This document shows, piece by piece, positions 1,034-2,555 of a stretch of 64,000 bases of DNA. A program made the translations under genes and the position numbers. The DNA is from Pseudoduganella lutea (lineage in GTDB: Bacteria; Pseudomonadota; Gammaproteobacteria; Burkholderiales; Burkholderiaceae_D): NCBI RefSeq assembly GCF_004209755.1, contig NZ_CP035913.1, positions 4,340,001-4,404,000 on the forward strand, given 5' to 3'. Position 1 is the first letter of the stretch, and each line of letters begins with the position of its first letter. The notes under the pieces were generated by a model. It saw only the letters and a list, made by a program, of their open reading frames with translations, searched no databases and was not told where the DNA came from.

Positions 1034-1158
1034 GGCATGTGCCGTTGGGGTGAAAGCAGGCGCGAAAACCAATGGGATGGACGCCCCCACCCTAAAACGG
1101 CATCAATGTGCCAAAGTGGAGTTGTCGAGAAACCACTTAACTAGAGGGGGGCGTCACC

Positions 1159-2178
1159 ATGAAGATTACGGTATGCGGTGTTGATTTGGCAAAGGAAGTT
1201 TTCCAATTCCACGGTGTGAATGCGGCTGGCAAGGTGGAGAAGCGTATCCAGCTGAGGCGTGGCAAGGTAATGGAATTTTTCGCCAACATGGCACCGTGCC
1301 TGATCGGGATGGAGGCATGTGGGAGCGCGCATTACTGGGCGCGGCAGTTACAAAGCCTGGGGCACACGGTCAAGCTGATAGCTCCGCAGTTCGTCAAGCC
1401 GTACGTGAAGACCAACAAGCACGATGCAGCAGATGCAGAAGCGATCTGCGAAGCAGTACAACGACCAAGCATGCGTTTCGTGCCGATCAAGAATATCGAA
1501 CAGCAGGCGATCCTTGCTGTCCACACGGCCCGGGCAGGATTCGTCAAGCAGCGCACGGCGCAGGCTAATCAGATTCGCGGGCTATTGGCGGAGTTTGGAT
1601 TGATCGTGCCAAAGGGCCTGGCCCTGCTTAAGGAGCGGGTGCCGACATTGCTCGATGAAGCGAAGGATGAACTGCCCGGCGCGTTCCGCCAGACCATCCT
1701 CGAACTTCTTGATCACTTGAACGTATTGGACAAGCGAGTTAAGCAATTCGAGCTGGAGATCCAGAATTGGCATCGCTCGAATTCGATGTCTCAGCGACTA
1801 GAGAAGATACCGGGCATTGGTCCGATTACAGCGAGCGCATTGGTGGCAGCGATCGGTAACGCCAAGCACTTCGCCAACGGCCGACAGCTCGCTGCATGGC
1901 TTGGCCTGGTGCCGAAACAGCATTCAACGGGCGGCCGAACCAACCTTCTTGGCATCAGCAAACGAGGCGATACGTATCTGCGCACGTTGCTCATTCATGG
2001 CGCCCGAGCAGTAATCCGGCACGCAGCCAACAAGATCAAGCAAGACTGGCTTCATTCGCTACTTAGCCGGCGACACAAGAATATCGCTGCCGTGGCCTTG
2101 GCCAACAAAAATGCAAGAACAGTGTGGGCGTTGTTAGCACATGACAGAGAGTTCCGAGCCGATTACGCTGCCGCGTAA
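1159..2178 (+). CDS. IS110/IS1111-family transposase (DEDD recombinase)
   Basis: A 339-residue intact transposase. The N-terminal RuvC-like domain shows the DEDD set: D9 (CGVDLAKE), E52 (GMEACGS), D89 and D92 (KHDAADAEA). A coiled middle region follows, then the C-terminal Transposase_20 domain with IPGIGPITASAL (helix-hairpin-helix-like) and the conserved serine in PKQHSTGGR (S256), the candidate nucleophile in this family. Length is normal and there are no frameshifts, so the element may be active. Start ATG 1159 follows a GAGGGGGG purine run. In this family the enzyme recombines a circular donor junction with a target under guidance of an element-encoded RNA. Confidence 0.95.
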   Translation: MKITVCGVDLAKEVFQFHGVNAAGKVEKRIQLRRGKVMEFFANMAPCLIGMEACGSAHYWARQLQSLGHTVKLIAPQFVKPYVKTNKHDAADAEAICEAVQRPSMRFVPIKNIEQQAILAVHTARAGFVKQRTAQANQIRGLLAEFGLIVPKGLALLKERVPTLLDEAKDELPGAFRQTILELLDHLNVLDKRVKQFELEIQNWHRSNSMSQRLEKIPGIGPITASALVAAIGNAKHFANGRQLAAWLGLVPKQHSTGGRTNLLGISKRGDTYLRTLLIHGARAVIRHAANKIKQDWLHSLLSRRHKNIAAVALANKNARTVWALLAHDREFRADYAAA

Positions 2179-2458
2179 TCGACCCGGTTAAGGGTCCCTT
2201 GTCGAAGGGAGGCAAACAGTTTTTGGAAGCAGTGCCGGTACATTCCACCGATTGCACAAGCGATCAAGCAGTGATGGCAAACCAGGTAAGACCGTGGTTG
2301 GCTAAGCCCGTCTGTCACCAAGCACTTCGAGTGCGTTAAACCGCCGGGGCGTCGACCAGCAAATCCGATCAGGGACAGTGGCATCGGCCACATCAAAGTC
2401 CGAATGTACGGGTGCAATCTTTACCTAAAGCCGTCATGAAAAGAAAGCTTGGCATACC
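2179..2458 (+). ncRNA. Candidate bridge/seek RNA region of the IS1111-type element
   Basis: This 280-bp non-coding tail lies between the transposase stop and the right inverted repeat, the usual position of the guide RNA in the IS1111 group. Seen in sequence: an outer stem TGGT (2295-2298)/ACCA (2355-2358), an inner stem GCCC (2306-2309)/GGGC (2347-2350), then a loop holding GTCTGTCACC (2310-2319), a small hairpin GCACT-tcg-AGTGC (2322-2334) and AAACCG (2338-2343). GTCTGTCACC can pair over 10 consecutive positions (one G-U) with the target top strand GGTGACAGGC at 2475-2484, just right of the insertion point. AAACCG equals the target top strand across the left side, so it would pair with the bottom strand. 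Exact RNA ends and the donor-binding loop were not resolved. Confidence 0.6.
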
Positions 2459-2473
2459 GGGGGCGTCCATGTA

Positions 2474-2533
2474 CGGTGACAGGCACCAATTAACGGGAAA
2501 CATTCCAAAAAAACCGGTGTCTGTCACCGGTTT
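2474..2533. repeat. REPIN (inverted REP pair) interrupted by the IS1111-type element
   Basis: The right REP is a palindrome with 9-bp arms AAACCGGTG/CACCGGTTT and loop TCTGT (2511-2533). The left REP arm, CGGTGACAGGCACC (2474-2487), is the inverted counterpart. Its missing outer bases (GAAAAC) lie at 1064-1069 on the far side of the IS. The spacer contains GGGAAACATTCC. Confidence 0.75.
2507..2533 (-). terminator. Rho-independent terminator of prlC formed by a REP
   Basis: Read on the minus strand, the 9-bp stem of the REP at 2511-2533 is followed by seven T (A7 at 2507-2513). It starts 23 bp past the prlC stop. Confidence 0.7.
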
Positions 2534-2555
2534 TGATGGAACATTCTCGCGGGAT

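Follow-up and report, generated by a model that had tools for sequence, protein, structure and literature searches.

Does the 3′ tail of an insertion sequence in the chromosome of Pseudoduganella lutea encode an RNA that leads the element to its target, and would such an RNA recognize the target only or the ends of the element as well? The element lies in a window of 64,000 nt (contig NZ_CP035913.1, positions 4,340,001 to 4,404,000), in which the initial annotation had described a bridge-RNA-like fold with loop segments matching the insertion site; the annotated interval, 2179–2458, coincides exactly with the 280-nt 3′ non-coding region of the element (Table 1). The element is of the IS1111 type, with 12-bp subterminal repeats, 7- and 3-bp terminal extensions, a DEDD transposase and a 3′ non-coding region. 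It agrees with the group in its DEDD/RuvC and Transposase_20 transposase (339 aa, the range of ~330–350 aa being that of Siddiquee et al., 2024; PMC11187229), in its subterminal repeats (usually 11–13 bp) and in its extensions (the rule of a 7-bp left and a 3-bp right terminal extension is given in the same paper), as well as in the longer non-coding region downstream of tnp and in the lack of target duplication, AAAAC and CGGTGACAG joining into the intact repeat AAAACCGGTGACAGAC. The transposase scores 364.7 bits against the NCBIfam model NF033542, 'IS110 family RNA-guided transposase' (cut-off 140). The extent of the element was fixed by comparison of its four genomic copies, whose flanks are dissimilar beyond the common target bases. 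Additionally, an inverted repeat (CGATTACGCTGCCGCGTAATCG, 2160–2181) lies over the transposase stop codon and is perhaps a processing or stop signal between gene and RNA.

Table 1. Features of the element and of its insertion site, in positions of the window.
Feature	Position	Strand	Remarks
Left target half, AAAAC	1065–1069	+	Identical in 4/4 copies
IS1111-type insertion sequence, 1404 bp	1070–2473	+	Extent common to 4 genomic copies
Left terminal extension, 7 bp, CAATGGG	1070–1076	+	Copy comparison; fits the IS1111 rule (Siddiquee et al., 2024)
Left subterminal inverted repeat, 12 bp, ATGGACGCCCCC	1077–1088	+	
DEDD transposase, 339 aa	1159–2178	+	PF01548 + PF02371; NCBIfam NF033542
Likely guide RNA body, closed by GATTGC (2250–2255)/GCAATC (2414–2419)	2250–2419	+	Consensus fold of 13 elements; predicted from sequence
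Probable target-binding loop, stem 2295–2302/2351–2358 + 2306–2309/2347–2350	2295–2358	+	Window fold; consensus
Right target guide (putative), GTCTGTCACC	2310–2319	+	Would pair with top strand 2475–2484; co-varies with flanks
Hairpin between target guides, GCACT-TCG-AGTGC	2322–2334	+	2/4 counted pairs change on both sides
Left target guide (putative), AAACCG	2338–2343	+	Equals top strand across insertion, AAAC^CG; co-varies with flanks
Left donor guide (inferred), ATCCGAT	2363–2369	+	6/7 pairs with left end
Hairpin between donor guides, GTGGCATCGGCCAC	2378–2391	+	4/5 counted pairs change on both sides
Right donor guide and core base (inferred), ATGTAC	2404–2409	+	Equals last 5 right-end bases + first left-end base
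−35-like TTGGCA	2449–2454	+	TA (2472–2473) + CAAT (1070–1073) joined give TTGGCA-17 bp-TACAAT in the circular form
Right subterminal inverted repeat, 12 bp, GGGGGCGTCCAT	2459–2470	+	
Right terminal extension, 3 bp, GTA	2471–2473	+	
Right target half, CGGTGACAGGCACC, first REP arm	2474–2487	+	
Second REP arm of the pair, AAAACCGGTGTCTGTCACCGGTTTT	2510–2534	+	Intact target on opposite strand at 2519–2534

The genome harbors four copies of the element and no other PF02371 match at E ≤ 0.001, and all four are flanked by AAAAC^CGGTGACAG[AG]CACC in one orientation. For the 16-mer AAAACCGGTGACAGAC, 41 intact sites are present, and three of them belong to the second repeat arm adjoining an element copy; with up to two mismatches the 16-mer yields 115 forward and 114 reverse matches genome-wide compared to 1 and 0 for the reversed control, and the palindrome GGTGWCWGWCACC is found in 123 places (its control in none). 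A second arm, inverted or direct, lies within ~60 bp of most AAAACCGGTGACAGAC sites (judged by eye in the 30 of 41 that were viewed), and because of these many copies, mostly with a nearby second arm, the target is a REP-type repeat. The earlier suggestion that the guide recognizes a REP and that the element homes to REPs is supported by the location of all four copies at a single REP position. A link between these REPs and RAYT was not borne out, as one related palindrome (L100) and no exact match was found around the five Y1_Tnp genes of the genome. Another palindrome, GGGGTCAGACCC-A-GGTCTGACCCC (1010–1033), stands directly left of the insertion, and a similar one adjoins a second copy (L002).

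In the 3′ region, the stems reported to enclose two short segments and a small hairpin (TGGTTGGC/GTCGACCA and GCCC/GGGC) are present on direct reading, and the first segment, GTCTGTCACC, can indeed form 10 consecutive pairs, one of them G-U, with the top strand that adjoins the insertion on its right. The corresponding flank at the other three copies is GGTGACAGAC, so that all 10 pairs there would be Watson-Crick. The second segment, AAACCG, had been equated with the top strand of the left half; it does match the top strand, but the match spans the insertion point (AAAC^CG) and the left half comprises AAAC only. The placement of the two guides on opposite strands holds, and their order, the top-strand match 5′ and the bottom-strand match 3′, is the one described for IS1111 seekRNAs (Siddiquee et al., 2024). 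When the 280-nt region was shuffled 20,000 times with its dinucleotides preserved, 67 shuffles contained a match as good as that of the first segment and four contained both segments in order at similar spacing; the 6-nt AAACCG match alone appeared in 10,410 and has little meaning by itself. The initial observation is thereby confirmed as real and beyond chance.

Homologous elements provide natural variants of these segments. The set comprised 40 loci, 28 of which were tested for repeats, both repeats being found in 19 and not in nine. A view by motif covered 19 loci, and eight were added (L011–L016, L038, L040), three of them with the right end only; the resulting list for the donor guides counts 26 elements, 23 with both ends. 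Guide-flank matching excluded L053 (which repeats L039) and L045 (no left flank); the alignment of 13 elements was made without L041, whose left end is odd, and without four Bradyrhizobium elements, and the permutations treated L031, L032 and L039 as one with elements of like target. A held-out set of ten elements (H2–H11) was fetched from 15 listed among at least 5000 plasmid matches; one (L124) had no repeats, leaving nine, and the ends of four of these were re-anchored at ATGG before scoring. Two observations concern the sample itself. L013–L016, from relatives of the host genus, form another IS1111 branch with left repeats starting ATGGACTCCT, a common target CGGCCA[AG]NNN^C[AG]GAC[AG]TT and an RNA region that holds their own end junction, ATATAC. 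The same element with the same flanks is found at L039 and L053, in records whose titles name Chryseobacterium and Citrobacter; this may point to cross-contamination of an assembly.

In the alignment of 13 elements the guide segments are variable columns between conserved ones. Over 10 distinct targets, the right guide fits its own site with a mean of 8.8/10 compared to 5.15 for swapped sites and the left guide with 7.1/8 compared to 4.09, neither difference being reached in 200,000 permutations; in the nine held-out plasmid elements the values are 8.11 against 5.26 (2/200,000) and 7.06 against 4.16 (1/200,000) respectively, all of these tests treating as independent elements that are related. 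The element's own site is strictly the best in 7/10 rows for each single guide and in 9/10 for both combined. At a fixed register the separation was weak for the right guide (584/200,000 permutations, compared to 0 for the left guide) since its register is displaced by one base from one element to another; own and swapped sites alike were then scored with shifts of up to two, a choice that followed the fixed-register result, and the held-out test kept this scoring. Poor fits are found for the left guide of L024 (5.5/8) and the right guides of L026, L122 and L127 (6.5/10 each), and in three of the four Bradyrhizobium elements the right guide matches the flank hardly or not at all, as judged from the listed best matches. 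Within one organism, Massilia niastensis, L023 and L024 carry different guides and occupy different sites, the left guide of L024 fitting only partly. Retention of the same segments by homologues with other targets had been named as evidence against guides; what is seen instead is a fit of the segments to the flanks of the respective element, imperfect in some cases. Top- and bottom-strand target matches in the IS1111 order that co-vary with the target, as expected of a seekRNA, are present with some poor fits, and judging from sequence the two segments almost certainly behave as right and left target guides.

The consensus fold of the 13 elements predicts a closing helix that is paired in all of them, and encloses both target guides with the central hairpin between. 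The stems of the target loop show changes on both sides in 6/8 and 3/3 counted pairs, and conserved stems that omit this region, which would also have spoken against the guides, are not what is seen, since the conserved stems enclose both segments. Altogether, both-side changes occur in 15/26 counted pairs (five helices, taken from 42 predicted pairs), a value that 0/500 shuffles reach; of five structure measures, four are reached by 0/500 shuffles and the fifth (further pair types) by 28/500. When the partners are slid by 1–3 columns, pairing falls from 96.2% to 36–44%, a control that flatters the helices as they were picked by the program from the same alignment, and the count of two-sided changes is the stronger sign. 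Single-sequence folding energy lends no support, the three stretches tested being not unusually stable (z −0.34, −0.83 and −0.80), and it is the compensatory changes among homologues that carry the predicted fold.

The distal half of the RNA region holds another loop, built like the first and absent from the initial annotation. Its hexamer ATGTAC equals the junction of the circular form, where the ends of the element are joined. Of 32 elements for which both ends are known, 31 carry at the aligned position a hexamer equal to their own end junction, over seven junction types: 22/23 initial elements match in all six bases, the miss being L041, and the held-out set matches in 9/9 cases and adds the junction types ATACAT and ATGCAT. 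The search pattern for this guide fixed only the context CCG[AG]AT, and the 32 elements include near-identical groups (the four Bradyrhizobium elements; L013–L016). In a quick tree made without L041, with 10/22 inner branches drawn open, the last three right-end bases changed at least six times among 25 transposases and the core base at least four times among the 22 elements with a left end. In 22/22 elements of the joint alignment (L041, the Bradyrhizobium elements and L012–L016 being left out of this count), left target guide, right donor guide and left end agree in the core base, a pyrimidine, and the flank carries this base in 20/22. Where the left-end base and the flank base are unequal (L012, L022, L026, L041), the RNA has the left-end base in three cases and the flank base in L041.

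The left donor guide is less telling. Its pairing with the left end is complete (7/7) in 14 of 23 elements, includes one G-U in two (L028, L031) and one mismatch in six (the window copy and L012–L016), and amounts to 2/7 in L041; in the held-out set it is exact in five, has one G-U in three and is mismatched in L129; these counts lean towards a match because the search pattern favored certain endings and the held-out guides were chosen by eye among several candidates. The segment is ATTCCAT in many elements and thus varies little, and the consensus fold puts part of it into a 4-bp stem. The mismatch of the window copy is the G at 2367, where its three sister copies carry the matching C and pair 7/7; this G is private to the window copy, which is possibly less active. 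A second loop that matches both sides of the donor junction, as in a bridge RNA, is present, with weaker agreement for the left guide (exact in 14/23 and 5/9) than for the right, and the donor-like guides of the distal half support a two-loop bridge RNA.

It could be argued instead that the RNA guides target choice only and that the transposase alone recognizes the ends through the subterminal repeats, the donor-like segments being unused for pairing. Such a division would agree with the small variation of the left donor segment and with the finding that transposition of a mini-IS was more frequent with the 82-nt seekRNA of ISEc11, described as holding the target recognition regions, than with the long form, in a paper that calls the domain binding the ends unknown (Siddiquee et al., 2024). 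It does not account for a right donor segment that equals the end junction through seven junction types, two of them first met in the held-out set, and that follows the left end in three of four cases of disagreement between left end and flank (the exception being L041 with its odd left end), and it is considered unlikely. A reading that dispenses with guides altogether, in which the matches are a coincidence or a captured REP-derived fragment and the transposase alone finds REP hairpins by their structure, can appeal to the palindromic nature of the REP targets and to the frequency of the AAACCG match in shuffled sequence; with homologues matching other targets in the same alignment columns, and with co-varying stems around the target segments, it is scarcely credible.

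The four copies might also derive from duplication of a REP-IS-REP unit rather than from repeated RNA-guided insertion, given that they are near-identical (the sister copies differ from the window copy at 4, 7 and 13 positions). Duplicated units would be expected to share their surroundings, whereas the 80 bases on each side of the four copies are unlike outside the REP sequence. An empty allele of the window locus was sought in 40 relatives and none was found, the left side being compared at 19 loci and matching in 18; in G003, the relative with the most similar flank and the only locus whose gap was read, there is no element and a REP of another class, hence not a clean empty site. Duplication is accordingly held to be very improbable. 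The REP of G003 (L102, 1449–1479) reads GGTGTCGGACACC ... GGTGTCCGACACC and suggests turnover of REP classes between relatives.

The account preferred here, quite probable as far as sequence comparison can tell, is movement of the element by RNA-guided recombination, the RNA pairing with both REP target and donor junction. On the most far-reaching reading, likewise probable, the long 3′ RNA in this IS1111 branch is a complete bridge RNA: one loop serves the target, the other the donor, the right guide of the latter co-evolving with the ends, and the two are coupled by one core base. The element would circularize, and its joined ends would form the promoter-like TTGGCA-17-TACAAT. When the −10 box had to lie across the junction, 17/18 elements reached a best score of 9–11/12 and L041 one of 8, and a promoter-like sequence at this place agrees with the junction promoter of ISEc11 (Siddiquee et al., 2024). 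This promoter would drive both the transposase gene and the 3′ non-coding RNA, and the RNA would be bound by the transposase as presumed from relatives. The first loop would then engage both REP strands, GTCTGTCACC pairing with the top strand on the right and AAACCG with the bottom strand on the left, a pairing suggested by the observed co-variation. The second would engage the donor junction of the circle: ATCC(C)AT would pair with the left end, and the partner of ATGTAC would be the complement of the right end and core base. Co-variation here is seen for the right end and core and is weaker for the left end. The target would be set by the guide and not by the transposase sequence alone, and the point and orientation of insertion into a multicopy REP family would therefore be fixed.

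If the complete bridge RNA is real, IS1111 elements may acquire new targets through exchange of the first loop and retain recognition of their ends through the second, and a seekRNA that reads the target only would not be the whole story. For the co-variation of guides with both target and donor in IS1111 elements, the locus is a clean natural example, and it adds one more REP-type repeat to the known targets of RNA-guided insertion sequences. Its main value, and the part of interest to specialists, is the co-variation evidence for the donor loop: as the right donor guide co-varies over 32 elements with natural end variants, the donor question becomes testable by simple swaps. Published work already covers the target guides of IS1111 elements, the targeting of REPs by ISPa11 and predicted IS1111 donor loops. 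A list of insertion sequences that enter REPs has been compiled (Tobes and Pareja, 2006; PMC1525189), and IS1111 seekRNAs with target matches, including that of the REP-targeting ISPa11, were described by Siddiquee et al. (2024), where the 82-nt seekRNA of ISEc11 sufficed for transposition and the role of the long RNA was left open. In the bridge RNA paper, IS1111 donor-binding nucleotides were predicted by inspection, three members being shown per group, and a figure legend refers to predicted target and donor guides of ISPa11 (Durrant et al., 2024; PMC11208160). Among the papers listed in a literature search that covered part of the journals and no preprint collection, none deals, to judge by titles and abstract beginnings, with this element or with IS1111 donor-guide co-variation.

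Compared to known systems, the element resembles the IS1111 seekRNA elements ISEc11, ISPa11, ISKpn4 and ISPst6 in its subterminal repeats, 7- and 3-bp extensions and 3′ non-coding region, as well as in the order of the target guides with the top-strand match first, and its promoter-like sequence at the joined ends resembles the promoter reported there for ISEc11 (Siddiquee et al., 2024); target and guide sequences differ from those reported there. A further difference is the donor-guide half, which co-variation supports here; the word 'bridge' is absent from the main text of that paper. ISPa11 of Pseudomonas aeruginosa, likened by its published description, is also an IS1111 element that inserts in REPs and has an RNA from its 3′ region (Siddiquee et al., 2024), although its host and REP differ from those of P. 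lutea. The bridge RNA of IS621, of the IS110 group, is similar in combining a target and a donor loop in one RNA and in its natural REP targets, whereas in that group the RNA lies mostly in the left end and the subterminal repeat is 2–3 bp (Durrant et al., 2024), and the guide order is reversed between the IS1111 and IS110 types (Siddiquee et al., 2024).
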